34,673 bases of DNA from Cyanothece sp. BG0011. Lineage in GTDB: Bacteria > Cyanobacteriota > Cyanobacteriia > Cyanobacteriales > Microcystaceae. The position numbers and the translations under genes were made by a program. The notes below the pieces were generated by a model. That model was not told the origin of the DNA, ran no database searches, and saw only the letters and a list, made by a program, of their open reading frames with translations. Of the stretch, positions 4,672 to 31,008 are shown one piece after another. The stretch lies in assembly GCF_003013815.1 (NCBI RefSeq), contig NZ_PRLH01000150.1, positions 1 through 34,673 on the forward strand, in the 5' to 3' direction. The number at the start of each line of letters is the position of its first letter. The first letter of the stretch is position 1.

Positions 4672-4738
4672 CGATTGTTGTATCTCACGCTTGTTGCAAT
4701 TTTCTGTAACTCTAAACTCTTGATCCTGAACTCGACGA

Positions 4739-6481
4739 TTATGAATTTCTAGGACGAACACCAGATACAATTAAACCCAATAAAACAAGTCCGAAAATTC
4801 CTATCTTATTATTAGGTTCGGGAACTGAGGCCGCCAAAAAAGCATTATCTTGAATCGTTTCGATGCTACTATTGCGACGAATAATAGTAGAGAGGGTGAC
4901 AGTTTCAAGGGTAGGATCTAAGAGATTAAGATGATCGAGGTCGTTAAGATAAAAAAAGCGATCGCCGTCTCGACTGCGAGTAAATTGGTCAATGAGAATA
5001 TGGCTAAAGGTTTCCCCTAATAAACCCCCATTGACCTTCTTCTCTGCTAAACCAGCAATCCACAAATCCACTTCATCCAGACTATTATAAACACTGGCAA
5101 AAGCGGTGGCTAAATCCATATCACCCCCAGTCAGTTGCAAAAAGGTGGTATAAGGGACTAATCCCAAGGCTAAACGCACCGTATTAATATCAGGAATACC
5201 ATGATCTCGACCCCGTTGTAGATTAAGAGAAGCGAGATCAAACCCGCCAGCCCCAGGGGGTCCAAATAAGAAGTTACGCACATCATCAACTAACAAGGTA
5301 TCCAATTCTTGGGCTTGTTGAAAAGCTAAACCCATTAACACGGTATCGATACCATCTTCTAACACTTCATCAGGGTTAAAGAAACTATCCCGTAACGATA
5401 AAGACTCAACAATATTACCCTCATTATCAACCCTGAGAAGATCGGGAGATAACATGGTATGACCAAAACGGAAAGCAGCCGTAGAGAACTCTGTTGCAAT
5501 GCTTGCATCAATCTGACCATCGTAACCGTTATAGTCTTCTAAGGCATTTTCCCCTAGAATAACCGGTAACCACTGATTATAGGTGATGATTTGCATCTGT
5601 GCGCCCACCACTTTACGGGCCGACTGAAAGATAAAATCCCCTTCACTCAGACCGGACTCCTGGAATTTATTAACTAAAGCAGTTTCTCCATTATCGAGAC
5701 GAATTTTAAGATCATCAGCAATACGATTATGTTCGCGCATAAATAGGGTATGAGTCGCCGTTAGTCCTATTTGTTCATTGGCGCGCACATCTCCTGATAG
5801 AAAATAGTTTTCCGTATTGGGATCACCTCCTGTATCATTGGCAATACCTGGTGTATTTAACATCAACAACTTTTCCCCATTGTTGGCTGTTTCAGCAATT
5901 AGTTTTCCGGTGCCATCATTCATCCGTAGAACATTGATACGATCATTATCTGAACCATAAATATTAGAAGCATCGATATAAGCAGTAATCTCGTTAAACT
6001 GTTGACGCACACCGAAACCATCAGTATTAAATTCTGAGCGATTTAAGCCAATTTGTTGAGTTCCCGTGTTAAAAGGGTCAAAATCGGGATCTCCACCAGG
6101 GACAAGAATATTAAAGGGTTCACTATTACCAATGGGACTTAAATCGAGATCATGGTCAAGAAACTGGCCCCATTGCCACACCCAGTCTGTCACTTTTGAT
6201 GCGTTAGGAATAAAAACAGATTGAGCAGAAATAGCGTTACTAATAGCCCGAGGATTCGGTAAAACACTAGAATTTAAACCCCCTCTAGGGATAGCAAGGC
6301 CATCTTCGTAGGCAACCCCTGAAAAGCGAATTAAATCACTCCCCACAGACCCAAAAGTAGGATTATTAGCATTATTACCTGTACCGTCCATACTGCGAAA
6401 TTCAGCCGCCTTAGCAGGAAATAACATTCCCACACTAAGAGTAGTGACAGTGGTTAAGGTAATAGCAATTTTTTTATTCAT
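4739..6481 (-). CDS. animal-type haem peroxidase (peroxidase-cyclooxygenase superfamily) with PEP-CTERM tail
   Basis: This is a secreted haem peroxidase related to myeloperoxidase and peroxinectin. The first 26 residues form a signal peptide ending in AKA. Residues matching the myeloperoxidase active site are in place. The distal set WGQFLDHD gives Gln106, Asp109 (candidate ester link to haem) and His110. The calcium loop is TAYIDAS (166-172). Catalytic Arg233 and Glu236 have the R-x-x-E spacing. Proximal His341 lies in FRFGHTML, with Asn420 in LNLQRGRDHG. The residue after Glu236 is Gln, not the Met that makes the sulfonium link in myeloperoxidase. The C-terminus VPEP (553-556), hydrophobic stretch and Arg is a PEP-CTERM sorting signal, so an exosortase elsewhere in the genome is expected. 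Substrate is unknown; halide oxidation or extracellular matrix cross-linking are possibilities. Confidence 0.9.
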   Translation of the reverse strand: MNKKIAITLTTVTTLSVGMLFPAKAAEFRSMDGTGNNANNPTFGSVGSDLIRFSGVAYEDGLAIPRGGLNSSVLPNPRAISNAISAQSVFIPNASKVTDWVWQWGQFLDHDLDLSPIGNSEPFNILVPGGDPDFDPFNTGTQQIGLNRSEFNTDGFGVRQQFNEITAYIDASNIYGSDNDRINVLRMNDGTGKLIAETANNGEKLLMLNTPGIANDTGGDPNTENYFLSGDVRANEQIGLTATHTLFMREHNRIADDLKIRLDNGETALVNKFQESGLSEGDFIFQSARKVVGAQMQIITYNQWLPVILGENALEDYNGYDGQIDASIATEFSTAAFRFGHTMLSPDLLRVDNEGNIVESLSLRDSFFNPDEVLEDGIDTVLMGLAFQQAQELDTLLVDDVRNFLFGPPGAGGFDLASLNLQRGRDHGIPDINTVRLALGLVPYTTFLQLTGGDMDLATAFASVYNSLDEVDLWIAGLAEKKVNGGLLGETFSHILIDQFTRSRDGDRFFYLNDLDHLNLLDPTLETVTLSTIIRRNSSIETIQDNAFLAASVPEPNNKIGIFGLVLLGLIVSGVRPRNS

Positions 6482-6629
6482 ATCTATATAAGGGAATTAA
6501 AGCCTATCCACCGGTTAAATGAGTATTTTATGGTGGATTCTCATTTTATTAAACCCATATTATGAGACAAAAGTTTCATGAGAATACAAATTTTTTATTT
6601 TCTCACACAAACTTTAACTCCTGCCTCCT

Positions 6630-7420
6630 TCAACAACCACCACACCCTCCGCCACAACCCCCTCCGCAACTGCTCCCGCAACTACTCCCGCAACTATGAC
6701 CACTTCCACAAGAAGTATGATCTATGGTGCTATGATGAGTATTAGTATCAACCGAATGGTCATAACTATCTGAATGGCCACCACAGCCAACACCATAAAT
6801 AATATCGGTAACACAGTAAGAAGAAATGCTATTTTCGGGACTCGTTTTCTTATGCTGAAAACAATCTAACGTATAGTAAAATCCATTTTCAATTTCTAAT
6901 AAAGTATCAATAGCAAATAATAAAGGTAAACGTTTCGGTCGATAAGAATTAATATGGTCTTTTTGACAAGCTAATTCCCAAGCTAAACGAATTCCTTGTT
7001 GTCCTTGAGTTCCTGTTTTCATGGCTTCAGCAGGGGTATGATGCAGAAAATAGCCAAACCCTTGAGAACAAAAATCACTATATTCTTTCGTAAATAAAAT
7101 AAATTCGTGCCAAGCTTCGTCAACAATTTGAGAGGGCATCGATACCATGCGTTGTTCAGCTTTATAGCAAATCAAAAAATAATCTTTTAGGGCAGAAAAG
7201 ACTAATGCTTGTTGTTCAGAAGATAAATAACTTCTTGTTTTTGCAAATTTTTCTTTAAACCCGAAACTAAATTGATAATTAGTAATAAATTTTTCTCGTT
7301 TTTTTTAATTTGCTGTTTATTTCGATATCGACTGATTAAGGTAACAATAATAATAGTCACTAAAGGAATATTAATTCCAATGGCTAGGCCTGTCATTAAA
7401 GAAAAGTTATTCAATTCCAT
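6630..7420 (-). pseudogene. Gly/Cys-rich membrane-anchored protein, frame broken at an A8 run
   Basis: Two overlapping reading frames appear to be one gene. The upstream frame starts best at the ATG at 7420 (AGGGAA about 8 nt before it) and encodes a transmembrane segment (about residues 7-29) and a basic stretch ending QQIKK. It then runs out of frame to a stop at 7202-7204. The second frame is open from about 7297 to 6630 and continues with NYQFSFGFKEKFAKT, SALKDYFLICYKAEQRMV and MPSQIVDEAWHEFILFTKEY. That WHEF-type core occurs in bacterial glycine-rich-domain proteins, and the tail is almost pure Gly/Cys/Ser (GCGGGCGGGCGGC). The frames join if the coding-strand A8 run (T8 at 7299-7306) had nine As. 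The downstream frame alone could only start at TTG 7175 or ATG codons inside the core. Function is unknown; the tail suggests metal binding. Confidence 0.65.
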
Positions 7421-7639
7421 AAAAAGTTCCCTGTGAGCCACTTAACGTTGTTTTGACTGATTATAATTTAAACTCATTTAGTATGATAGATAAGAGTTAA
7501 AGCTTAACCTAACCTGAAATTCATCTAAAGTTATTAGAGAATATAACTATTCTTGATTAACATTGATAATAGCCTCAGTAAATTCGCTAACCTGTCAATC
7601 AATACGGGCTATCGATAGTGTAAATCTTTGACTTCTATT

Positions 7640-8683
7640 ATGACCAGTTTACAAACCCCTACCGTCCCAGAACATAGCCTTGATCGTGACTGTATGACTC
7701 TGTCACGTCACGTTTTGCAACAGCTTCAAAGTTTTTCTCCCGAAGCGCAGGATCTCAGTGCCATTATGAACCGCATTGCCTTAGCCGGGAAACTGGTTGC
7801 TCGCCGTCTCAGTCGTGCTGGTTTGATGGCCGATGTCTTAGGATTTACTGGAGAAACCAATGTACAAGGGGAGTCCGTCAAAAAGATGGATGTCTATGCC
7901 AATGATGTGTTTATCTCTGTCTTTAAACAAAGTGGCTTAGTGTGCCGTTTAGCCTCAGAAGAGATGGACAAACCCTATTATATTCCTGAAAATTGTCCCA
8001 TTGGTCGGTATACTTTGTTATACGATCCCATTGATGGCTCATCTAATGTCGATATTAATTTAAACGTGGGATCAATCTTTGCCATTCGTCAACAAAAAGA
8101 GGAGGATCTCGACGGAGAAGGCAATGATCTCTTAAAAGATGGACACGAACAATTAGCGGCCGGCTATATTGTCTATGGACCGTCTACCATGTTGGTCTAT
8201 TCCATCGGCCATGGCGTTCATTCCTTCTTGCTAGACCCCAGTTTAGGGGAGTTTATCCTCGCACAAGAAAATATACAAATCCCCGATCACGGTCCTGTCT
8301 ATAGTACCAATGAAGGAAACTTCTGGCAGTGGGATGATGCTATTAGAGACTATACCCGTTATGTCCATCGTCATGAAGGTTATACCGCCCGCTATAGTGG
8401 GGCATTAGTGGGAGATATTCACCGTATTTTGATGCAAGGGGGCGTGTTTTTATACCCCGGAACCGTTAAGAAACCGGAAGGAAAATTACGTTTATTATAC
8501 GAAAGTGCGCCCTTAGCCTTTTTAGTTGAACAAGCAGGAGGCAAGGCCAGCAATGGACTGAAACCCATCTTAGACGTTGTTCCCGATAAACTTCATGCTA
8601 GAAGTCCTTTAGTCATCGGTTCTAAAGAAGATGTCAGCTTAGTCGAGTCCTTTATCCAAGATCATCAACGTCGGGGGAATTAA
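7640..8683 (+). CDS. fbp: fructose-1,6-bisphosphatase, class I
   Basis: This enzyme hydrolyses fructose-1,6-bisphosphate to fructose-6-phosphate in gluconeogenesis and the Calvin cycle. The start is the ATG at 7640, giving 347 residues; a TTG 12 bp upstream is less likely. Seen: the acidic metal site SEEMD (about residues 106-110), the signature [13 protein letters not shown] (126-138) with metal-binding Asp and Glu partners, [14 protein letters not shown] near residue 251, and the substrate-binding segment [11 protein letters not shown] followed by EQAGG. Cyanobacteria also carry a bifunctional FBPase/SBPase of another class, which usually supplies most of the Calvin-cycle activity, so this class I form may serve mainly gluconeogenic flux. 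It stands alone, 49 bp before cobU in the same direction. Confidence 0.95.
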
Positions 8684-8732
8684 GAATTTAGAATGAAGAA
8701 TGAAGAATTAATTTTCTTTCTTGCCAAGACTA

Positions 8733-9275
8733 ATGTCTAAACATATTTTAGTGACGGGGCCCAGTCGTTCAGGAAAAAGCGAGTGGGCCGAAAGGTTGGC
8801 CGAGAAACAAGATCAACCAGTTATTTATGTGGCCACTGCTTTAGAAAACCCCGATGATGCTGAATGGCAACAGCGTATCGAAAAACATCGCCGTCGTCGT
8901 CCCTCTCACTGGCAAACCCTATCCGTTCCCTATGATCTTTGTGCAACCATTGAACAAGCAAACCCTCCCCATTGTCTCTTAATTGACTCTTTGGGGACTT
9001 GGGTGGCCAATGGGTTAGAAGAAGATGAAGAAACTTGGGAAACCATAACCACTCGCTTGTTAGAGACAACACAACAAGCGTCAGTGGATCTTATTTTTGT
9101 GGCCGAGGAAACAGGATGGGGTGTGGTTCCTGCTTATCCGTTAGGGAGATTATTCCGCGATCGCTTAGGACATTTGATCCGACAGTTAGGGGCGATCGCA
9201 GACATCACCTATTTAGTTGCAGGGGGTCACGTTCTCAATTTAAGTTTATTAGGACAGCCTTTAGACACATTGTAA
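8733..9275 (+). CDS. cobU: adenosylcobinamide kinase / adenosylcobinamide-phosphate guanylyltransferase
   Basis: This bifunctional enzyme of cobalamin assembly phosphorylates adenosylcobinamide and then transfers GMP to it. The start is taken at ATG 8733 (180 residues, normal for CobU) because the P-loop GPSRSGKS begins at residue 9; a TTG 12 bp upstream would only add MPRL-type residues. His52 in RIEKHRRRRPSHW corresponds to the histidine that carries GMP in the Salmonella enzyme. LLIDSLGTWVANGL is the conserved second strand region, and VVPAYPLGRLFRDRLG is the C-terminal family motif. The last three codons (Asp-Thr-Leu-stop) lie in a 15-bp sequence repeated 7.1 kb downstream. The stop is 2 bp before the next gene. 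Confidence 0.93.
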   Translation: MSKHILVTGPSRSGKSEWAERLAEKQDQPVIYVATALENPDDAEWQQRIEKHRRRRPSHWQTLSVPYDLCATIEQANPPHCLLIDSLGTWVANGLEEDEETWETITTRLLETTQQASVDLIFVAEETGWGVVPAYPLGRLFRDRLGHLIRQLGAIADITYLVAGGHVLNLSLLGQPLDTL

Positions 9276-9276
9276 A
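9262..9276 (+). repeat. left copy of direct repeat bordering the pPIWI-RE module
   Basis: TAGACACATTGTAAA spans the end of cobU, including its stop codon. A second copy, TAGAACATTGTAAA, lies at 16342-16355. The two align over 14 matching bases with one single-base gap and contain an exact 10-mer ACATTGTAAA. They enclose exactly the three pPIWI-RE genes, which suggests an insertion or recombination scar, though chance is not excluded. Confidence 0.4.
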
Positions 9277-9277
9277 G

Positions 9278-10327
9278 ATGACAGAAAAGCATACAGAAGA
9301 AGAAATATTATTCATCAAACTGTGTAAAGGGTTGGTCGAAATCTGCGATCGTATCAACAGAGGTGAACCGGCTTATCTTGTTAATGATTATCAGCCATTT
9401 CCTCAACCTTTATACGAAGCATTTGAGCAATTAAGCATTAAATGGATATTGAGGGATGAAAAAATGCGTCATCCTTCTATTCTTAACATGGTTGAAGCAG
9501 CGAGACACTCAGTAGAAGCAGTAGAACCCGATTTTTGCCAATGGGTTGATTTTCCTGATGAACCTTTAATCGAGGATATGATACAACCATCGGAGGAATG
9601 TGAAGACTTTGCCAGTGATTATAGTTTAAGTTTAGAAATTGATAATAATCAAAGCTATATTCTTCGGTTGATGGACGAAATTAAAAAATATGATTTACCT
9701 CTACAAACCTATACTATATTTCGTCGTTTCATAGCAGAAAATCCCTTTCCTTCTGAATTTGATCAAGCATTATTACTAGATAAACATCCTGAAATTGAAA
9801 GAGTAAAAGACTTATTAGAAGAAGCTTATCAACCTGCACCTCCCCAGTCTCATGATATGGGATTATGTAAAAAATGTGGTGGTTATTTAGACTGTGCCGC
9901 AAGAGAAATTAATGAATGTTGTGAACCTTTAGAGCAAAAAGTCGATAAATCACCGATTATTGATACTGTTTATTGTTTAATTAGACCCTCTTTAATTGAA
10001 TTACGTCTAGCAAAAATTATTAAGGAAATGGGACTAGAAGTAGAGTTATGGCCAGAACTAGATAAAGCTGATCTAAAAATTACTTTTCCTGATGGTAAAA
10101 TTTGGGCAATTGATGCAAAAGACTGGGGAAGTGCGACAAGATTAGCTAGGAAATTAAATCAAGATAAAATTCCTGATATTGGTCAATCTCAATCATTTTT
10201 TGTGGTTCCTGACTATCGACTTAAAAAGCTGCAAGATCAAGCTATTTTTAAAAGTAAATATCAAGGTAATATTGAAGTGATTTCAGAATCAGAATTAATT
10301 AAACGTATCAAAAAGGAATTAAAATGA
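9278..10327 (+). CDS. pPIWI-RE module REase: PD-(D/E)XK nuclease with zinc-ribbon-like insert
   Basis: This 349-residue protein is the nuclease partner of a pPIWI-RE system. The ATG at 9278 is 2 bp after cobU; a longer frame open from 9035 runs antiphase through cobU and is not a credible start. The N-terminal half (1-190) is acidic and helical and matches the expected pPIWI-RE-associated N-terminal domain. A cysteine cluster follows: Cys197-x2-Cys200, Cys206, Cys214, Cys215. The C-terminal restriction-endonuclease fold shows Glu241 in a helix (SLIELRLAKI), Asp265 in KADLKITF, and Asp279-x-Lys281 in WAIDAKDWG, the D...(D/E)xK catalytic pattern. It should cut DNA, perhaps at sites marked by the PIWI protein. 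Its stop overlaps the helicase start by ATGA, implying translational coupling. Codon use is notably AT-rich. Confidence 0.85.
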   Translation: MTEKHTEEEILFIKLCKGLVEICDRINRGEPAYLVNDYQPFPQPLYEAFEQLSIKWILRDEKMRHPSILNMVEAARHSVEAVEPDFCQWVDFPDEPLIEDMIQPSEECEDFASDYSLSLEIDNNQSYILRLMDEIKKYDLPLQTYTIFRRFIAENPFPSEFDQALLLDKHPEIERVKDLLEEAYQPAPPQSHDMGLCKKCGGYLDCAAREINECCEPLEQKVDKSPIIDTVYCLIRPSLIELRLAKIIKEMGLEVELWPELDKADLKITFPDGKIWAIDAKDWGSATRLARKLNQDKIPDIGQSQSFFVVPDYRLKKLQDQAIFKSKYQGNIEVISESELIKRIKKELK

Positions 10328-13300
10328 GAAATTCAAGTAGTTGGCTAAAAAAATTAAGTGAACAGTTTGAAAATTATGTTTCTCAACGAACTAATTTTAT
10401 TCGCACTGAATTGATGTTATACGCTTTACATACTTATTTCCCTTTACATCCTATAAAAAAAGCTCATTTATTAATGCAGGGTTATCGAGAACCAGGAGTA
10501 AGTGATCAGCAGTGGAAAATTATTAAACATTTACGTCATTTAGCATCAGAATTTCGCAGTTCTATTAGTTGGGAAATTGCTTTAAGAAATTATGATGATC
10601 TGGCTAAAAATAATAATAGTATTTTAGGGTTTGAAATTGATTATGAAAATAACTGTATTCGTTTAACTAATGATATGTTTACGAATCGCTATGAAATTTA
10701 TGAAAGTGTCTTAAATAAAACACTTAAATTTGATACAAAAAAATATGATCCTGCACCAAAAGGAGATTATCAGTTTAAGATTAATTCAGAGGAAACCAGA
10801 TTCGTTAAAATTTCCGAAAATATTGCTAATATAGGAATACAATATAAAAATAATATTCCGAGTATTAATTTAAGTAATAATCGTGAGTTGATTAGAATAT
10901 CTCTTAAAACATTGGTTAATAAAGGAAGAGAGTTAAAAGAAGTTTTAAAGTATGATGCAGGGACAATTATTAAGAGGTCTCGTTATTGGGATATAAAGAA
11001 TAATAAAGAAACTGATGAGATATATATTGATGGTGAAAGTCATATTTTAGGACCGACTGGTAGCGGAAAATCAACATTAATTGAAAGCTTAATTACTGTA
11101 TTAATTGAACAAAATAAAAGAATTACCATTGCGACTAATAGTGTAGGAGAGGTTCAAGATTGGTTAGAATTTGCTCAAAAAACAAACATTGAAGCAGTAC
11201 CTATTATTGGTAATTCTGAACGACATAAACATTTAAGTCGCTTAAATCAAGCAATTATGTTTGATAATAAAGATCAATCTTTTACTCATCCAGGGTTTAA
11301 ATGGTTAAGTCAATGTTGTCCCTTATTCGCATTAGCAACCCCGTCAAGTCCACAGTCAACTATAAATAAAAGAAATAAAAAACCTTGTTTTAATCAATTA
11401 GAAGATGTTAATGATCCAAAAAAGAAAAAATATGATTGTCCTTTAGTGGGAGTTTGTCCCCAACATATCACTGCTAAAGAATTAGAAAAAGCGCAGTTAA
11501 TTGTCGGAACATTACCAGGTTTTATTCATAAAAAAGTATCGAGTCATACCTTAAAAGAAAACATTACAATTATTGAATATTTAGCCTTAACTACTGACTT
11601 GTTTGTAGTAGATGAAGTGGATCTCGCTCAACCTAAATTAGATGAACTTTTTTATCCTATTGTTACCCTTGCCTCTTTTGAGCAAATGCAAGATACTTGG
11701 TCACGTAATGAATTTTATCAGCATATAAATAGTGTTTTAGAAGGGGAAGTTGTTGTACTCAAAAAATTTAGAGATTCTTATCTTGAGGAATCAGAAGGAT
11801 GGAAATTTTTAGCGTGTAAAGCAATCGCAGATATGATGTATTCTCTAAGAGATATTGCTGCTATTTTTCAAGGGAAACAACCAACACAAGAAATTGAAAC
11901 ATTACTGAGACAATGTGCAACAGAAGGAAGATTATTTGCTGCTTGGTCTTTATTTGATAGTTTAGCTGAACATCTATCAGGAAAAATCAAAATTCGTTTA
12001 GGCGAAAAAATACGCAAACCAACCGCTAATAAATACGAAAAAAGTTATGAAAGATATCGTGAAATCTTTAAACGGATACAAGATAAGATTAGCGATCCCA
12101 GTTTAGTAGGATTAGAGAGTAAAGATAGCAAAATTGTCACTAAATTAACTTACATAGCAGGGATTTTATTAAATACACCATCCTCTAAAATTCCTCATCC
12201 TAAATGCGTTGAATTTATCAAAGAAACGAAATGGGATACAGAACTCAATAAATTAGAATCTGACGAAGAAAAATTTATTGATAATCTAGCAATGTTATTA
12301 CAATTGTCTATTTATGCGGCTCAAGGGTTAGGAGCATTAGGTAAACATATTTCAACTAGAAGATTATCTAATAGTGAACTTCAATCTAATTTACCCTTAA
12401 TTCCACCCGTTGATTTTGAAAAATTGTTACCTGCGTCTCCCGTGGGTGCAGTGACTAGCGCACAATATCAAGATGGACATCTTAAAATACATAGAGGTAT
12501 TTGTATCGGGCGATCGCTTTTAAGTCAATGGCAAGAAATTTTTACAGTTGATGGGTTAACACCCTCTCATTTATTAGTGACTTCAGCTACCAGTTATTCA
12601 GGAGAAAACAAACAATCTTATGGGTTTCATGTTCAACAAAAACCTAGTTTACTAATTGAACCACCAAAAGAAAAAATTGAAAAAGTAACGAGAAAAAGTG
12701 AATTTTTCTTTTGTCCTGTGGTCGATAATAGTAACATTCCTGTGAGGATATCTGGTTCCTATGGGGACCAACGTCACGACAATATAGGAAAGATGGTATC
12801 TGGTTTATGTCGTCCCTTTACCCAAGGTGAACCTTTAATTGATCGATTTCAAACCTATTTAAAAGATAAAATAGGAGAAGACCGAAAAAATCTCCTATTA
12901 ATTACTAATAGTTACGCTGAAGCCAAAACCTTCTATACTTGCTTAAAACCACCCTATCAAGAAAAAGCGTCTTTTGTGGTTCGAGATGGAGACAGTGTTT
13001 TATGGTCTCCTGATATCAATGTTCCTCGTTCCAAAATGACAGAATTTCCCAGTCAAGGAAAAGAACTATTAATTGCTCCTATTGGTGCTATTTCTCGCGC
13101 GGTTAACCTCATGCACCCAGATAATAAAGAAGAGCCTTATTTTGGTGGTATGGTCATATTAGTAAGACAACATCCTCGTCCCGATGATAATCAAATTATT
13201 ATCAGTGCAGTGAACAAAAACGCCGTTGATAATATGGGTTCTAAACCTGTCACTACCATTCAAAGAGAAGCGAGAAATACAAGAGATGTATTCTTAGCTG

Positions 13301-13647
13301 TTCCGCAAATTTTCTCTAACCTACCAGACGAAATACAAGACGTTGCCATGAGAGATCCGCTTATTTGGACGTTAGCAGTAAATTTAACCCAATTAATTGG
13401 CCGTAGCACCCGTGGAGGGCGTAATACGGTTGTTTGGTTTACGGATGCTGCATTTATGCCACAAACTGCACAAGGTAAAGGTGACAATGAAACAGAAAAA
13501 ACATCTCTGTTGTTAGCCGTTCGTCAACTTTTGGGGAATGCTATTAAAGCAGGGGGTTCGTCTGGTCGTTTAATTGAAACCTTATACGGGCCGGTTTATT
13601 ATCCTTTGACTCGTTTAACTCACTATATCAATCAACGCCCTTTGTAG
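10324..13647 (+). CDS. pPIWI-RE module DinG-type Fe-S superfamily 2 helicase
   Basis: This 1107-residue protein has a unique N-terminal region (about 1-235, where pPIWI-RE helicases carry their dedicated domain) and a DinG/XPD-like helicase. Seen: Walker A GPTGSGKST (243-251), then cysteines at 331/332, 355, 372 and 378 spaced like the Fe-S cluster of DinG/XPD, and GTLPGFI in the following motif. Walker B is FVVDEVD (427-433, a DEVD box). A TSAT motif III-like segment lies near residue 753, and motif VI is QLIGRSTRG (Gln1023, Arg1027, Arg1030). Family logic points to ATP-driven unwinding of DNA or RNA-DNA hybrids with 5'-3' polarity. It is coupled to the nuclease gene by a 4-bp overlap. One HIP1 site (12510) occurs in an otherwise AT-rich gene. 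Confidence 0.87.
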   Translation: MRNSSSWLKKLSEQFENYVSQRTNFIRTELMLYALHTYFPLHPIKKAHLLMQGYREPGVSDQQWKIIKHLRHLASEFRSSISWEIALRNYDDLAKNNNSILGFEIDYENNCIRLTNDMFTNRYEIYESVLNKTLKFDTKKYDPAPKGDYQFKINSEETRFVKISENIANIGIQYKNNIPSINLSNNRELIRISLKTLVNKGRELKEVLKYDAGTIIKRSRYWDIKNNKETDEIYIDGESHILGPTGSGKSTLIESLITVLIEQNKRITIATNSVGEVQDWLEFAQKTNIEAVPIIGNSERHKHLSRLNQAIMFDNKDQSFTHPGFKWLSQCCPLFALATPSSPQSTINKRNKKPCFNQLEDVNDPKKKKYDCPLVGVCPQHITAKELEKAQLIVGTLPGFIHKKVSSHTLKENITIIEYLALTTDLFVVDEVDLAQPKLDELFYPIVTLASFEQMQDTWSRNEFYQHINSVLEGEVVVLKKFRDSYLEESEGWKFLACKAIADMMYSLRDIAAIFQGKQPTQEIETLLRQCATEGRLFAAWSLFDSLAEHLSGKIKIRLGEKIRKPTANKYEKSYERYREIFKRIQDKISDPSLVGLESKDSKIVTKLTYIAGILLNTPSSKIPHPKCVEFIKETKWDTELNKLESDEEKFIDNLAMLLQLSIYAAQGLGALGKHISTRRLSNSELQSNLPLIPPVDFEKLLPASPVGAVTSAQYQDGHLKIHRGICIGRSLLSQWQEIFTVDGLTPSHLLVTSATSYSGENKQSYGFHVQQKPSLLIEPPKEKIEKVTRKSEFFFCPVVDNSNIPVRISGSYGDQRHDNIGKMVSGLCRPFTQGEPLIDRFQTYLKDKIGEDRKNLLLITNSYAEAKTFYTCLKPPYQEKASFVVRDGDSVLWSPDINVPRSKMTEFPSQGKELLIAPIGAISRAVNLMHPDNKEEPYFGGMVILVRQHPRPDDNQIIISAVNKNAVDNMGSKPVTTIQREARNTRDVFLAVPQIFSNLPDEIQDVAMRDPLIWTLAVNLTQLIGRSTRGGRNTVVWFTDAAFMPQTAQGKGDNETEKTSLLLAVRQLLGNAIKAGGSSGRLIETLYGPVYYPLTRLTHYINQRPL

Positions 13648-13664
13648 GGTGGGCAATGCCCACC
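13648..13664. repeat. short palindrome at the helicase/pPIWI junction
   Basis: GGTGGGCA, one A, and TGCCCACC form an 8-bp inverted repeat within TAGGGTGGGCAATGCCCACC, a sequence familiar as a dispersed repeat in cyanobacterial genomes. Its first three bases overlap the helicase stop codon (TAG at 13645-13647). Its centre contains an ATG (13656) that opens the pPIWI frame. It could damp transcription or shield translation of the third gene. Confidence 0.6.
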
Positions 13665-13703
13665 TTACCACATCATTTATCTATTTACCCACAAGTTCAA
13701 ATT

Positions 13704-16295
13704 ATGGAAAAAAAACACTACAACTATTTTCAACCGATTTATTTTGAATATGATGCAGCATTGATTAAAGATATTACCGGTTATGTTATGGCATTCCCTA
13801 ATTTAGAAAAATTCAAACTACACTACGAAGAAGATAAAAAAAATGCACCGACTAATTCTTTACTAAATACGTTACGTTTACTATTACCTCAAATTAGAGT
13901 AATTAATAATCTAACTAAAAATGATGAACCTAACCCCTCAGCTTTTTTAGCTGATGAACCTGTTGATCCTAAAAAATTATCTTTAATATTTAGAAAATGG
14001 GTCGAAGTTTGCTATCCAGAATCAAAACATGAAAAGGTCAAAAGTTTATGTACTCCAAAACAATTTCAATGGAAAGAAGCAACCCCAGAACAGTTAGAAT
14101 GGTGGTCACCAGCTTGGGCAATGGGTAAACTATTAAGTGAACAAGAATATGAGTTAGGGGATGATAAAAAATTTAAGTTACTATTTAGTCCTAGTAGAAA
14201 AAGTAATACAGTTGAGTTAGTTTCTTGGCCACCTTTGACAACTTCCCGTAGATATAAATGGTCTATTGGCGTTGTTATTTCTACTCAAAGCGATCTAAAA
14301 CAGAAAAGAATCAATATTCATTTTAAAATGAAACGTTGGTTTGTCAAACGAGGAGATAAAAACGAAATTGGCTTACAAAAGAATACAACTTATTGTTATA
14401 TTCGTAAGTTAAAACCTTGGTCAAGAGAGTTGAATTTTATTGAGCCTAATTGTTTTACGGTTTTAGAAGCCAAAAACTTTAAAAAAGAAGAAATAGAAGA
14501 TAAAGAAAATCAATTTGAAAGTCGTTGGAAAAATCAAAAAATATTACAAATATTAGATAAATTAGGAGTAAAAGTTTCTATTCCTAATATTGAAGATGTA
14601 CTTAAACAACCTTTGAACTATTTTGAAAGTGATGACATCGATATTTTAATTCCTGCTAGAGTATGGCAAAAAGTCGGAGTCGGAACAGGATTTACTATTG
14701 CTGATGGCAGAAGATTACTAAAACAAATTATTGAATTTTTACCTAAGAGTTTAAAGTTAACTCAACCTTGGCAAAAAATATCTGAAATCAAAAAAAATGA
14801 GACTATAAAACAGCAATTTGATCATGCTTCACAATTAGTAAAAAACCAATTTCTTGAACATCCACAGGAAAAATATAAAAAATCATTTAAGCCTAATCAT
14901 GATAATTTACCAAAACTTCCTGAAGATTATAAAACATTTTTACAACAAAGAGCTAATAATATAACCCTTTATATTTGTACTGCCAGTAATTCTAAAACAA
15001 AAGATGCTATTCAACAAGTTGCTGATCATTATTTTGGAGATAGTTTAAACTTAATTTTTATTCCTTGGGATAATATAGCTAATCATATTACTTTGAAAGA
15101 ATCTAATAGAAAAACTTCCCCCAAGAGAAAAATTCCTGAGTTCAAACATATTAAAGAGTTTGGTGCTAAATACAAACAAGATAATCCTACACCAATCATC
15201 GTTGAAATATTAGACCAGGATCACCCATCTTATAAAAATAATGTTGATCCAAAATCTTATATCAAATCAATGTTACCAAAATATCATTTAATTCCTCAAT
15301 GTATCGTATCTTATGAACAATGTACCAATAAAGATAAAAAAAATAAATTAGAAAAAAGTTTATTTAATCGTGCTTTTCAGTCAATTTTAGATGCAATAAT
15401 GCCTTTCGATCAAAACTATCCTTTATCAACTTCTGAAGATAATAATGCTTATGCAGGTTTTTATGTAATCTCTCGAAATAAAGCAACCTCTAATGACCCT
15501 TTTTATGAACCTGTCTTAGTTGTTATTTATAAAAATGAAATTAATGTTTTATTACTAGAAGGTGAGAAAATAAAATGGTTTTCATTGCCTGATGCTGTTT
15601 GTTATTTATCTAATAAACGAAAAAATAAAACCAAGCAAGATGAAACTGTTGTAAAAAAAATGTTAGATGAGCTTAGTCTTAATTATTCAAATGCTGATAA
15701 TATCTATATTTATGCTCATGCACAAAATTCGAGAAGATACTGGCCATGGTTACAAGAGACACACTTCAATCCAAATAAACCACCGACTAATAAAATGACT
15801 ATTATTCGTATTCGAGATTTAGATAATAAGGAAGTAGCTTCGGGATATGGACTACCTATAGAAAACGAAGATTTTTCAGAAGAATTTGACCCAGAAATAG
15901 CTTCTTATGCCAATGGAATTTTTATGCCACTTAATTCTAAACCTGGCGAAATACCATTGATAGGATTAACATTACATCAAACTGTATTAAGTATTGCTCA
16001 AAAACCACAAACATTAAGTAACCAAATCAAAACAACGAGTCGTTTTGAGCCTTATACTTCTGCAAAGAGTAAAACTTACGATCCGATAACCAAAAAAGAC
16101 TGGAAAATGCCTCAACCCCGCGCCCATAATATATTAGCCACACCATCACCAGACAAGTTTATCTTACATCACAAAATTGCTCATGAGTTGCGATCGCGTC
16201 ATTGGTGGAGTGCAGACGAATGCAAATATCCTCTACCTTTATCTTTGGCCGAGAAACTTAAAGAATGGTGTTTCAGTGAAGAAATAACCGAGTAA
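13704..16295 (+). CDS. pPIWI-RE family prokaryotic PIWI/Argonaute-like protein
   Basis: This is the third gene of the pPIWI-RE triad. The ATG at 13704 (863 residues) is preferred to one at 13656, which lies in the loop of a palindromic repeat and adds 16 residues of repeat-derived sequence. The N-terminal X-like domain starts at YFQPIYFEYDAALIK. A MID-like segment follows (around LYICTASNSKTKDAI and IIVEILDQDHPSY). The C-terminal RNase H-fold PIWI region begins near NAYAGFYVISRNKA. The two positions that name the family are visible: arginine in AHAQNSRRYWPWL (Arg677/678) and glutamate in HHKIAHELRSRHWW (Glu828), followed by the terminal PLPLSLAEKLKEW. The usual carboxylate tetrad of slicing Argonautes is not apparent, so cleavage probably depends on the REase partner. 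Strongly AT-rich codon use fits horizontal acquisition. Confidence 0.85.
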   Translation: MEKKHYNYFQPIYFEYDAALIKDITGYVMAFPNLEKFKLHYEEDKKNAPTNSLLNTLRLLLPQIRVINNLTKNDEPNPSAFLADEPVDPKKLSLIFRKWVEVCYPESKHEKVKSLCTPKQFQWKEATPEQLEWWSPAWAMGKLLSEQEYELGDDKKFKLLFSPSRKSNTVELVSWPPLTTSRRYKWSIGVVISTQSDLKQKRINIHFKMKRWFVKRGDKNEIGLQKNTTYCYIRKLKPWSRELNFIEPNCFTVLEAKNFKKEEIEDKENQFESRWKNQKILQILDKLGVKVSIPNIEDVLKQPLNYFESDDIDILIPARVWQKVGVGTGFTIADGRRLLKQIIEFLPKSLKLTQPWQKISEIKKNETIKQQFDHASQLVKNQFLEHPQEKYKKSFKPNHDNLPKLPEDYKTFLQQRANNITLYICTASNSKTKDAIQQVADHYFGDSLNLIFIPWDNIANHITLKESNRKTSPKRKIPEFKHIKEFGAKYKQDNPTPIIVEILDQDHPSYKNNVDPKSYIKSMLPKYHLIPQCIVSYEQCTNKDKKNKLEKSLFNRAFQSILDAIMPFDQNYPLSTSEDNNAYAGFYVISRNKATSNDPFYEPVLVVIYKNEINVLLLEGEKIKWFSLPDAVCYLSNKRKNKTKQDETVVKKMLDELSLNYSNADNIYIYAHAQNSRRYWPWLQETHFNPNKPPTNKMTIIRIRDLDNKEVASGYGLPIENEDFSEEFDPEIASYANGIFMPLNSKPGEIPLIGLTLHQTVLSIAQKPQTLSNQIKTTSRFEPYTSAKSKTYDPITKKDWKMPQPRAHNILATPSPDKFILHHKIAHELRSRHWWSADECKYPLPLSLAEKLKEWCFSEEITE

Positions 16296-16341
16296 CATTC
16301 AATCCTAGACCTTCCATTTTTGCAAAAGTTGATATCATAAG

Positions 16342-16355
16342 TAGAACATTGTAAA
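16342..16355 (+). repeat. right copy of direct repeat bordering the pPIWI-RE module
   Basis: TAGAACATTGTAAA lies 46 bp after the pPIWI stop and 20 bp before the next gene. It matches 9262-9276 with one single-base gap. Recombination between the copies would delete all three pPIWI-RE genes and leave cobU intact, followed closely by the methyltransferase gene. Confidence 0.4.
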
Positions 16356-16375
16356 CAAATATTACAGATTCCTTA

Positions 16376-17362
16376 ATGTACTTATATTACACACTTGGCT
16401 CTATTACTTTACTGGCAATCATAGGGATTGTTGTCTATTTAATCACCCCTCGCAACTACGAATCTTCGGAAACTGTGGCGAATTCCTACGACGAATGGAC
16501 AGAAGACGGTATTCTAGAATTTTATTGGGGCGAACATATTCATTTAGGACATTACGGTTCCCCACCACAACGAAAGGATTTCTTACAAGCAAAAGAAGAT
16601 TTTGTTCACGAAATGGTCAAATGGGGCGGTTTAGATAAACTACCCCAAGGAACCACCGTGTTAGATGTAGGTTGCGGTATTGGGGGAAGCAGTCGCATTT
16701 TAGCCAAAGATTACGGCTTTGCTGTCACCGGAGTTACCATTAGTCCCCAACAGGTTAAACGCGCCCAAGAATTAACGCCAGCAGGGGTTACGGCTGATTT
16801 TAAGGTAGATGATGCTCTGGCTCTTTCTTTCCCCGATAATAGTTTTGATGTGGTGTGGTCCATTGAAGCGGGTCCCCACATGGAAGATAAAGCTAAATAT
16901 GCCGAGGAAATGATGAGAGTGTTAAAACCTGGGGGAATTTTAGTGGTTGCGGATTGGAATCAACGGGATGACCGTCAAAAACCCCTTAATTTCTGGGAAA
17001 AACCCTTAATGCGTCAACTATTAGATCAATGGTCCCATCCTGCCTTTTCAAGTATAGAAGGATTTTCCGAACAAATCGAAGCCACAGGATTAACTGAAGG
17101 GGAAGTAATAACAGCAGATTGGACACAAGAAACCCTACCTTCTTGGTTAGACTCCATTTGGCAAGGAGTGATTCGGCCCCAAGGAATGATTAAATTTGGT
17201 GTTGCTGGAATTATTAAATCTCTCAGGGAAGTTCCCACACTGTTGTTAATGCGGATTGGTTTCGGGACAGGGTTATGCCGCTTTGGAATGTTTCGCGCGG
17301 TAAAATCTGACTCAGGGAAGGAACTGGCAGAACAGTCTACTGCCAACAGTCTTGTTCGGTAA
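16376..17362 (+). CDS. 2-methyl-6-phytyl-1,4-benzoquinone methyltransferase (Sll0418-like)
   Basis: This SAM-dependent methyltransferase of tocopherol synthesis, and probably plastoquinone synthesis, methylates MPBQ/MSBQ-type prenylquinols. The 328-residue protein opens with a membrane-anchoring hydrophobic segment (about 4-24). SAM motif I is VLDVGCGIGG (95-104), and ISPQQVKRAQELTP and FDVVWSIEAGPHMEDK are characteristic. I recognise long stretches shared with Synechocystis Sll0418, such as VVADWNQRDDRQ, NFWEKP and the terminal GTGLCRFGMFRAV. It is not homologous to the plant VTE3 enzyme of the same activity. It lies 80 bp downstream of the pPIWI-RE module and is probably the ancestral neighbour of cobU if the module was inserted. 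Confidence 0.93.
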   Translation: MYLYYTLGSITLLAIIGIVVYLITPRNYESSETVANSYDEWTEDGILEFYWGEHIHLGHYGSPPQRKDFLQAKEDFVHEMVKWGGLDKLPQGTTVLDVGCGIGGSSRILAKDYGFAVTGVTISPQQVKRAQELTPAGVTADFKVDDALALSFPDNSFDVVWSIEAGPHMEDKAKYAEEMMRVLKPGGILVVADWNQRDDRQKPLNFWEKPLMRQLLDQWSHPAFSSIEGFSEQIEATGLTEGEVITADWTQETLPSWLDSIWQGVIRPQGMIKFGVAGIIKSLREVPTLLLMRIGFGTGLCRFGMFRAVKSDSGKELAEQSTANSLVR

Positions 17363-17437
17363 TTTATAGTTTTTCTTCCATAGAAAAAAACACGAAAACG
17401 TTACCATGATATCAGTTAGATAATCTCGGTGAAATCT

Positions 17438-17866
17438 ATGAGTATGGCTTCAACTGAACAAGTCAGACAATATCTTGCCCATTGGTTCCAGTTAGGTAAA
17501 TGTGTCATTTGTCCGAAACAACAGGAAAAAATTCGTCCTCAGGTCATTTTTAGAGGACATGATTATTCAACGGAATTTGAACAATGTTGGCAAAAAATCC
17601 TACATACTGATGCTGATTGCTATTTAGAAGGCACAGAACAAACCATACAACAGTTATTAAGTCCGGCGTGGGAAATTATTGATTGTCCTCGCTGTGACTT
17701 ACCCATACCCATGACAGTTGGGGGGGTAGCTTCTCCTGCTTGTACTTGTTTTGACCTATCGGATTGGCCAAACAACGAATTACCGTCTCCGAAGATTCCT
17801 GCTAACAGTAGCACCCATCTCAATCGTCTTAGACAACGATTACAAAGTAAAGAAGATGATAACTAA
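17438..17866 (+). CDS. conserved hypothetical cysteine-containing protein
   Basis: This protein of about 142 residues from ATG 17438 (a GTG at 17429 is an alternative) is of unknown function. Seen: CVICPKQ in the N-terminal third, CPRCDLPIPM in the middle and CTC shortly after. The two Cys-x2-Cys pairs could bind zinc, but no named fold was recognised. WFQLGKC and the C-terminal basic LNRLRQRLQ are the other striking segments. It follows the methyltransferase gene after 75 bp and overlaps the end of the convergent SRPBCC gene by 4 bp. I take it as a cyanobacterial conserved hypothetical on the basis of its ordinary codon use and position; family assignment is not possible from the sequence. 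Confidence 0.65.
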   Translation: MSMASTEQVRQYLAHWFQLGKCVICPKQQEKIRPQVIFRGHDYSTEFEQCWQKILHTDADCYLEGTEQTIQQLLSPAWEIIDCPRCDLPIPMTVGGVASPACTCFDLSDWPNNELPSPKIPANSSTHLNRLRQRLQSKEDDN

Positions 17867-18342
17867 GCCAATCGTTGTTCGGCTGCTTGGGCTAATTCGG
17901 TGGCAACACGGGCAGAATAGGGCTTAATTAACCACCAAATCAAAGGAGATAACCATCCTTTGAGGGTGACAGAATAGGAAATATAAGTACCGCAGAGGGT
18001 TGATTCGACTTGATAGGTAATTTTTTGTTCCATTCCTGGAATGGTTAAGACTCTTAAACTCAATAACTCCCCCGGACGAACATTTTCCACAAATAAACGC
18101 ACAGGAATAGGGGTTAAACGAGTCACTGCCTTATAGATTAACCCTGGTTTAGCCATCAATCCCAGGGGAACATTAGTTTTGGAGAACAGAGGATGCCAAG
18201 AAACATCAGCCACATTAATTAATTTGTACCATAACACATCCAGTGGGGCGGTACTCATCACACGATAACGCTTATACAAAGAAAAGCGACAGAACAGTTT
18301 CCCTTTGGCAAACATTAATTTTAAAGAGAAATTGAGAATCAC
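17863..18342 (-). CDS. SRPBCC (START-like) family protein
   Basis: This protein of about 159 residues has the START/polyketide-cyclase-like helix-grip fold pattern. It has an N-terminal strand with YRVMSTAPLDVLWYKLINVADVSWHPLF, then a run of alternating strands (VRLFVENVRPGELLSLRVL, ITYQVESTLCGTYISYSVTL) and a long C-terminal helix (YSARVATELAQAAE). Such proteins bind small hydrophobic ligands in a cavity. The chosen start is GTG at 18342, preceded at suitable distance by AGGGGGG; a TTG at 18360 would add six residues but would place the purine tract inside the gene. The ligand is unknown. It is convergent with the preceding gene (4-bp overlap) and 65 bp downstream of nusB in the same direction. 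Confidence 0.75.
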   Translation of the reverse strand: MILNFSLKLMFAKGKLFCRFSLYKRYRVMSTAPLDVLWYKLINVADVSWHPLFSKTNVPLGLMAKPGLIYKAVTRLTPIPVRLFVENVRPGELLSLRVLTIPGMEQKITYQVESTLCGTYISYSVTLKGWLSPLIWWLIKPYSARVATELAQAAEQRLA

Positions 18343-18407
18343 ATCTGCCCCCCTCAACAATGGTCTGGCAAGTTTATTATTGTATCGGTTGAGTGTTGAT
18401 CATACTG

Positions 18408-30051: not shown

Positions 30052-31008
30052 ATGTCCAGCGACCAACCTTCTCCCGTATCCTCAAATCCTTCTCAACTTT
30101 CTGACGATTTGAACCAGGAAATTTCCCAGGAAGAATTCATTACACTACTAAAAACAACCATTAGCAAACTAGACTTAATTGTTCAGCAAGTCAACGAAGA
30201 AAACATCAATAATTTACCCAACAAAGACACTTTAAACACACTCATTAATAGCACAGAAAGCCTGGCTAATTCTCTAGAAACTCAAGGCCAGATAGCTACC
30301 TCCCCTGAAAAAGAAGATGCTGAAACAGAAGACAATGAAACCATAGACGAGGCAGAAGACTGGGGAGATGATTTGACCCCAAAGGAAGTCAGCAAAACGG
30401 CAGAAAGTGAAGAAGTCAGCGAAGAGATTAAAGTTGAGGAAACCCCTGAAACCGAAGAATTATCCTCACCTCCATCCTTTTTCAACAAGTTATCCGGCGG
30501 AAAAATAGCAGGAGTAATCGGATTAGTTTTAATTGTGGCCTTATCTGCCTCATTTTTCCTCTTGAAACCCTCCTTACCCACCCTAGAAATTTTCAACCGT
30601 TCCCCCCAAACCCCCCAACCCCAAGTGGTAGAAACCCCCGCAGAATTAGAAGAACCCTCCTTACCCGAACCCCTTCAAAATGTCCCCTCTTCTCAAACCA
30701 AATTAACCCCAGAACAAAGCTTAATCGCTGCCATTCAAAAAGAAGTCACCGCCTTAACTAATCAATATCCTGAGGATTTAATTGGTAAAATAGAAGCCAA
30801 CTTTCTCGGCAGTCGTCTGACAGTCACCCTAGGGGATAAATGGTATGATTTATCAACAAAAGAACAAGATAACCTAGCAGATACGATCTTAGAAAAGACT
30901 CAAAGCCTCGACTTTCGTAAATTAGAAATGTTAGACTCTCAAAGAAATCTCATTGCTCGTAGTCCAGTGGTCGGCAATAACATTATTATCCTAAAAAGAA
31001 ACCGTTAA
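30052..31008 (+). CDS. cyanobacterial membrane protein, acidic N-terminus and one transmembrane helix
   Basis: This 318-residue protein has no named family. Residues 1-145 are acidic, Ser/Glu-rich and low in complexity (long runs of Glu, Asp and Thr), so probably disordered and cytoplasmic. One membrane helix lies at about 150-171 (IAGVIGLVLIVALSASFFLL), followed by a Pro-rich linker. The C-terminal 95 residues form a compact domain (LIAAIQKEVTALTNQYPEDL, then ANFLGSRLTVTLGDKWYDLS and LEMLDSQRNLIARSP) that looks conserved and is likely the functional part. It is 23 bp upstream of the CRR7-like gene in the same direction, so the two may be co-transcribed. The 270 bp upstream hold no recognisable gene. 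Confidence 0.7.
   Translation: MSSDQPSPVSSNPSQLSDDLNQEISQEEFITLLKTTISKLDLIVQQVNEENINNLPNKDTLNTLINSTESLANSLETQGQIATSPEKEDAETEDNETIDEAEDWGDDLTPKEVSKTAESEEVSEEIKVEETPETEELSSPPSFFNKLSGGKIAGVIGLVLIVALSASFFLLKPSLPTLEIFNRSPQTPQPQVVETPAELEEPSLPEPLQNVPSSQTKLTPEQSLIAAIQKEVTALTNQYPEDLIGKIEANFLGSRLTVTLGDKWYDLSTKEQDNLADTILEKTQSLDFRKLEMLDSQRNLIARSPVVGNNIIILKRNR

Follow-up and report, generated by a model that had tools for sequence, protein, structure and literature searches.

We identified a three-gene cassette, encoding a restriction endonuclease (REase), a DinG-type helicase and a PIWI protein, at positions 9278-16295 of contig NZ_PRLH01000150.1 of Cyanothece sp. BG0011. The stretch analysed, hereafter the window, is this whole contig (34,673 nt) of a 5.6-Mb cyanobacterial genome. 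By sequence comparison the cassette is of a known kind, the pPIWI-RE three-gene system of Burroughs et al. (2013), a class predicted in that year (PMC3702460). Of the two residues after which the family is named, its PIWI protein has only one, and the cassette belongs with its close relatives to a lineage here called clade A. The reading we favour, to which we give about an even chance, is that clade A is a mobile and divergent pPIWI-RE lineage whose frames are intact here and whose most likely function is the guided elimination of invading DNA. Within the open literature, the clade A variant and the residue statistics given below are new to us.

Organization of the cassette

The REase gene (9278-10327, + strand, 349 aa) begins with an ATG located 2 nt after the stop codon of cobU. 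It is followed by the gene of a superfamily 2 (SF2) helicase of the DinG type (10324-13647, + strand, 1107 aa) and by the PIWI gene, whose longest open reading frame (ORF) spans 13656-16295 (+ strand, 879 aa) and whose corrected frame, with X, MID and RNase H-like domains, spans 13704-16295 (+ strand, 863 aa). The original prediction had described three same-strand genes, the first two joined by a 4-bp ATGA overlap; the genes are present as ORFs, and the overlap of the REase and helicase genes was seen at 10324-10327. The spacing from helicase to PIWI is 56 nt, counted to the corrected PIWI start. All of the motifs listed in that prediction (GPTGSGKS, DEVD, QLIGRSTRG, NSRRYWPW, HELRSRHWW, D...DAK and a Cys cluster) were found in the sequence.

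The assignment to the pPIWI-RE system of Burroughs, Iyer and Aravind, here in a cyanobacterium, is borne out by profile matches, gene order and motifs. In Pfam searches, the REase protein matched PF18154 (E 1.8e-27, 96.2 bits, cut-off 26.1), the helicase matched PF18155 for domain Z (E 4.9e-35, 121.4 bits), and the PIWI ORF from 13656 matched both PF13111 for domain X (E 7.8e-29, 101.4 bits, cut-off 30.5) and PF13032 for the RNase H domain (E 9.7e-18, 65.4 bits, cut-off 25). A third protein without matches to the pPIWI-RE profiles would have spoken against the identification; with PF13111 and PF13032 both matched, this outcome did not arise. The profile check thus held for X, Z, RNase H and REase, all above their curated cut-offs, but not for MID (PF18157, 20.3 bits on the PIWI protein, cut-off 26.6) or domain Y (PF18156, 14 bits on the REase protein, cut-off 26.7). 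With the PIWI protein taken from 13704, the E-values were 7.5e-29 for PF13111, 9.3e-18 for PF13032 and 0.00069 for PF18157, the last below its cut-off. The PADLOC models PprDinG (1.1e-110), PprPIWI (7.7e-104) and PprRE (9.2e-22) also matched, and chance is far from explaining the homology of the three proteins. Furthermore, the order REase-helicase-PIWI with overlapping or tightly spaced genes is the one that characterizes the three-gene system.

The true start of the PIWI gene is probably 13704 (863 aa) and the ATG at 13656 false, because the latter lies inside a palindrome and adds 16 residues that match nothing in the three relatives whose aligned sequences extend to the N-terminus. The palindrome, GGGTGGGCAATGCCCACC (13647-13664, no strand assigned), is located at the helicase stop codon, at the helicase-PIWI junction, and is dispersed in the genome: the pattern GGGTGGGCA[A/T]TGCCCACC has 63 matches, three pairs of which overlap, and the reversed-pattern control gave 0.

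Active sites of the nuclease and helicase

Residues were counted in alignments of 87 REase, 79 helicase and 77 PIWI rows, mostly cyanobacterial. Sixty of the places listed by an order-wide PF18154 scan were taken into the comparison. Helicase rows below 840 aa, REase rows below 300 aa and PIWI rows below 530 aa were excluded, which removed L035 and L036 from the helicase tree and L032, L121 and L128 from the PIWI counts; the duplicate rows L122 (the same as L032), L132 (L036), L113 (L105) and L069 (L035) were also removed.

The REase protein consists of a domain Y-like helical region, a Cys cluster (C197/C200/C206/C214/C215) and a PD-(D/E)XK nuclease (E241/D265/D279-A-K281); no helix-turn-helix (HTH) domain fused to it was found. 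The nuclease residues D262, D265, D279 and K281 are present in 87/87 rows and E241 in 86/87. Conservation extends to the cysteines (C197 in 87/87 rows, C200 and C215 in 86/87 each) and to R149 in the Y-like region (86/87), where the Y profile itself is below its cut-off. The structure model of the REase protein gives the expected helix-strand order around E241-K281 and is too poor to prove the REase fold; the PF18154 domain has intact residues.

The helicase carries the N-terminal domain Z, four conserved cysteines, the Walker A motif GPTGSGKS, the DEVD box and motif VI, QLIGRSTRG. K249, C332, C355, C372, C378, D430, E431 and the Walker A Gly were found in all 79 rows, and the motif VI residues in 75 or 76 of them, the remainder being gaps. 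Searches of solved structures with the helicase sequence gave no convincing relative, and the better matches were P-loop stretches.

The PIWI protein and the family residues

PIWI residue numbers count from the ATG at 13656. The presumed slicer positions of the window PIWI, Y603 and H688, were assigned by their 85-residue spacing, which is that of D525-D610 of PsPIWI-RE from Pseudomonas stutzeri, rather than by alignment with that protein. The window PIWI thus appears to lack the catalytic aspartates (DEDX) of slicing Argonautes. At column 603, the presumed first position, Asp occurs in 0 of the 76 PIWI rows with a letter. The presumed second position is His in 9/9 clade A rows and Asp in 6/6 rows of a second lineage, clade F; among the other rows with a letter it is Asp in 17/59 and Glu in 28/59. 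Across this mostly cyanobacterial set, the PIWI protein looks non-slicing, while the helicase and nuclease residues are kept.

The family is named after an R and an E residue. The window PIWI keeps R718 and has A823 (PQPR-A-HNILATPSP) where the E is expected. In column 823, the 77 rows show E in 57, A in 7 and S in 2 (the nine clade A rows), F in 5 and M in 1 (the six clade F rows), and a gap in 5. The E is therefore absent from 9/9 clade A and 6/6 clade F rows and present, in an L-E-I-like motif, in all 57 other rows that cover the site, which five more do not. Clade A reads PR[A/S]HNI[L/F]ATPS here in eight rows and TRAHNILATPS in L036, and clade F has a GVFLNL-like sequence in 6/6 rows. By MAFFT the clade A residue is A or S in 9/9 rows, and by a profile lacking clades A and F it is A/S in 7/9 and N in 2/9; no alignment made places an acidic residue there. 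The family R is kept in 9/9 clade A rows, lost in 6/6 clade F rows and kept in 58/59 others. Clade F (L022, L024, L112, L115, L119, L127), also made up of three-gene modules, is thus without both R and E, and its MID Gln is Asp in 5/6 rows.

A profile built from 56 rows, with clades A and F left out, matched 9/9 clade A PIWI proteins at 7e-47 or better, and no reversed decoy appeared in the same table up to E 100. The homology of the clade A PIWI is thus beyond doubt. By the strict 2013 definition, the sequence of the window PIWI has the R and fails on the E; since one defining residue is missing, we class it as a variant lineage that is homologous to the family but outside its canonical membership.

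In the MID region, where PF18157 scored below its cut-off, K537 and Q548 are kept in 9/9 clade A rows, and the best part of the PIWI model consists of alternating strands and helices. Foldseek searches with this model gave the SPARTA structure 8i87 (1.7e-5) and RsAgo 6d9k (2.6e-5) as best matches, followed by the weaker matches SPARDA 9jsz (0.018) and DdmD-DdmE 9ezy (0.09). No convincing relative was found in solved structures by PIWI sequence.

Relatives of the cassette

Relatives were scanned for with two close helicases as query in a collection holding one genome per species, and viral contigs were scanned in the same way. The collection scan yielded five close loci, in Xenococcaceae, Nostoc (two), Crocosphaera MO_188.B44 and Hydrocoleum. 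With the further relatives G222, G394, G512, G541, G630 and G664, clade A totals 12 loci. In the helicase tree (79 rows), ten rows, the window among them, group together on a long stem, with full support in the Shimodaira-Hasegawa-like approximate likelihood ratio test (SH-aLRT). The position of clade A among the other lineages is unsure, because the tree method was a quick one and long branches meet.

Within this set the window is nearest to G512, from another host family, and not to G394 of its own family. This observation, together with gene neighbours that differ between the window and the five close loci and a segment that is replaced in a congener, marks the cassette as transferable. Helicase tblastn searches gave 24 plasmid records, all less than 60% identical. 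The family's REase has been recorded among the cargo genes of 19 Tn7-like transposons (PMC8649781).

All three genes have a full frame in 5/12 clade A loci (the window, L033, L125, L130 and L133), and L032 is cut by a contig end. In the damaged loci, the PIWI gene is split over two frames in G222, has residues 311-748 unmatched and a changed frame in G394, and is found only as residues 15-187 in G630. Other breaks affect the helicase-PIWI junction (L034) and several genes, helicase and PIWI (L036). The helicase of L035:10001-12786 (the same locus as L069) is in two frames and misses residues 219-404, including Walker A and the Fe-S cysteines, which is either decay or an error in a metagenome-assembled genome. 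Some breaks may be assembly errors, since several loci come from draft or metagenome assemblies. A full REase frame (at least 347 aa) is present in 12/12 loci; in L036 it holds X and a repeated stretch.

As a separate observation, five of the six damaged loci (L027, L034, L036, L121 and L128; L035 is the exception) are broken in the PIWI gene or at its start. Such PIWI-biased breaks beside long REase frames raise the question of a PIWI-free use of REase and helicase.

The ratio of nonsynonymous to synonymous substitution rates (dN/dS) was 0.04-0.23 in 14 gene comparisons of five clade A module pairs, the pair farthest apart having reached saturation of dS, and 0.14-0.22 for the window against L133. 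PIWI had the highest value in each of the four pairs that permit a PIWI comparison. By this comparison of sequences, clade A modules are under purifying selection.

Other modules and distribution

Two further pPIWI-RE modules, B and C, were found in the genome of the window; both match PADLOC models and lie on other deep branches of the tree. Module B (L018, L019) lies on two contigs, C72 and C166, separated by a break within its PIWI gene next to a stretch of repetitive charged sequence, and its start is MerR-like (PF00376, 23.3 bits, below the cut-off). Module C (L020), on contig C23, has an N-terminal region that we take to be LexA-like.

PF18154 was matched in 7/9 genomes of the genus, in 89/388 of the order and in 10/388 of a set spread over the class. 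The idea that the family is rare was thus rejected, since 10/388 across the class stands against 89/388 in the order. At least two matches occur in 11 of the 89 positive genomes of the order and three in 3 of these 11; three copies are therefore not unique to this genome, two other genomes of the order also having three, some partial. A rule that no genome carries two modules from one clade was considered as well and dropped, since only part of the multi-copy genomes was placed and the trend was not significant by a rough estimate. The nine genomes of the genus hold four different lineages of the module. At L071:6070-6901, a module of a fourth lineage in the same genus adjoins a Cro-type HTH gene and a PemK/MazF-like gene.

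Genomic site and expression

Upstream of the cassette lie a fructose bisphosphatase (FBPase) gene (7628-8683; PF00316, 7.9e-58) and cobU (8721-9275, + strand; PF02283, 8.3e-54), the latter directly upstream of the REase gene on the same strand. The neighbouring genes tested (FBPase, CobU, methyltransferase, NusB, haem peroxidase, ABC transporter) are ordinary ones, so the site looks like that of a lone cassette rather than a defence island; 4 of 20 neighbour ORFs had no Pfam match at 1e-5.

By blastn, the congener G413 aligns with the window at 4738-9263 and 16428-18384. The intervening stretch, 9264-16427, has no counterpart there and gives the outer bounds of the replaced segment. ORFs and Pfam matches at this place in G413 (L063:7985-9259) revealed two genes unrelated to the module, Uma2 and DUF29, in its place, so the gap between cobU and the methyltransferase gene is a variable site.

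When 12 upstream stretches were aligned and judged by eye, no promoter element or guide-RNA gene was common beyond close pairs, and an Rfam search of the window gave 0 matches at gathering scores. Because the REase ATG lies so close to the cobU stop codon and relatives share no upstream element, we infer that the cassette is probably transcribed by read-through from FBPase-cobU.

Two other features of the window were observed. At 4739-6481 it encodes a full-length animal-type haem peroxidase (PF03098, 2.9e-146), here in a cyanobacterium. A 318-aa ORF at 30052-31008, upstream of a CofD-family gene on the opposite strand, has no Pfam match at 1e-5.

Discussion

The reading of guided elimination starts from the conserved gene set and order, the intact helicase and nuclease residues, the lack of the presumed catalytic Asp in the PIWI protein, the Argonaute-like model of the MID-PIWI region and the purifying selection, all of which come from comparison. 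In the proposed mechanism, the PIWI protein would bind the 5' end of a short guide in its MID pocket and pair the guide with invader DNA, which it could not cut itself since its RNase H site is degenerate. The paired complex would recruit or license the Fe-S helicase, and the DNA would be unwound from that site. The PD-(D/E)XK nuclease would then cut the unwound or tracked DNA, and plasmid or phage genomes would be destroyed. We infer guide binding, the order of these events, DNA as the target and defence as the purpose, and with them that the cassette is a defence system in this strain. The working principle would be like that of DdmDE and ApsAB, but with helicase and nuclease on two chains.

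Several known systems share parts of this design. In structure the PIWI model matches SPARTA, SPARDA and RsAgo best (1.7e-5 to 0.018), but unlike the window these are partnered by a TIR domain, another nuclease or none; we know of no DinG helicase in them. In DdmDE, DdmD is the helicase-nuclease and DdmE an inactive Argonaute. Compared by type of part, DdmDE likewise joins a guided Argonaute-type protein to a helicase-nuclease (9ezy being a weak Foldseek match), whereas it comprises two genes and is guided by single-stranded DNA (PMC12904381); one passage of that paper names the two roles the other way round. ApsAB, in which an Argonaute-like protein and a helicase/PD-(D/E)XK protein destabilise plasmids, was inactive with helicase or MID mutations and partly inactive with nuclease mutations (PMC11096173). 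It shares with the window, again by type of part, an Argonaute-like protein with a guide-pocket motif, an SF2 helicase and a PD-(D/E)XK nuclease, and has motifs of its own (DELH, SAT, QAVGRVER, D...DVK; PMC11096173). Unlike the separate genes of the window, helicase and nuclease are fused in one protein there, and ApsB has no RNase H fold.

The pPIWI-RE system itself (PMC3702460; PADLOC) has the same three proteins in fixed order with overlapping or close genes. Domains X and Z, the REase and the R residue are shared, and the slicer site is degenerate in part of that family. In contrast, the window has no family E, MID and Y matches below the cut-offs, a long-branch lineage and no HTH fusion that we found. 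PsPIWI-RE is also a PIWI-RE protein encoded beside DinG helicase and restriction enzyme genes, but it keeps D525/D610 where the window PIWI has Y603/H688 at equally spaced positions. It carries out RNA-guided cleavage of DNA and DNA-guided cleavage of RNA, for which D525/D610 are needed (PMC10991935), showing that slicing-active members exist outside the set compared here. Since its R639A and E718A mutants were still active (PMC10991935), loss of the E need not abolish function.

A number of points weigh against guided elimination. PsPIWI-RE, the only characterised relative among the open-literature matches listed, itself cuts, and its knock-out phenotype is ciprofloxacin sensitivity; the word phage is absent from the available sections of PMC10991935. 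Helicase tblastn searches found no match among phage records, and the viral contigs held no clade A member. A gene is broken in 6/12 clade A loci, and MID K533 is missing in 2/9 clade A rows. Furthermore, the PIWI model is poor overall (mean predicted local distance difference test score, pLDDT, 43) and useful mainly within 411-718, the MID-PIWI core. For the REase model, none of the fold matches reached significance, the top ones being archaeal Hjc resolvases (best E 0.2).

Guided destruction ranks first among the explanations, and the R-loop model of 2013 comes next. According to the latter, which we regard as unlikely for this cassette, the PIWI protein would store no guide and would recognise RNA-DNA hybrids on transcribed invader DNA, which the helicase would open and the nuclease cut. 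The paper that proposed it also cites DinG helicases acting on R-loops (PMC3702460), and PsPIWI-RE cleaves only with hybrid guide-target pairs (PMC10991935). However, the residues of the MID 5'-end pocket are conserved, although a mere hybrid sensor would not need them, and the structures matched best are those of Argonautes, several of which contain a guide; neither point is decisive.

A further possibility, which we think improbable, is that the cassette is silent or undergoing decay in this strain, given that it lacks a 5' region of its own and that many relatives are broken. The REase ATG just past the cobU stop, the homology to the empty-site relative that extends to 9263, the upstream element that relatives (by eye) do not share, the palindrome at the helicase-PIWI junction and the damaged clade A loci would fit such a state. 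On the other hand, none of the three frames in the window is interrupted, the active sites of helicase and nuclease keep their residues, dN/dS against L133 is 0.14-0.22, and read-through from cobU could express the cassette. Least probable in our view, and very much so, is a housekeeping role in replication or division instead of defence. It would account for the raised ciprofloxacin sensitivity of the P. stutzeri piwi-re knock-out (PMC10991935), but it sits poorly with the patchy presence in order, class spread and genus, where four lineages occur in 7/9 genomes, and with the helicase copies on plasmids and the transfer between host families.

A further idea concerns the missing family residues; we offer it tentatively and hold it to be rather doubtful. 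Clades A and F would be separate subtypes, each with its own mode of recognition, of a PIWI system that has three chains and does not slice. This system would have given up the R-E salt bridge in favour of another guide or target geometry, and this genome would run three mutually compatible modules of different subtype, each against a different class of invader.

Taken together, the comparison suggests how the work may be divided, in a form open to testing: the PIWI protein would be the sensor and the helicase and nuclease the conserved enzymes. It also shows that neither of the two residues naming the pPIWI-RE family is kept by all of its members. Good material for such tests is at hand in a genome that carries three lineages of the module and a congener whose corresponding site is free of it.

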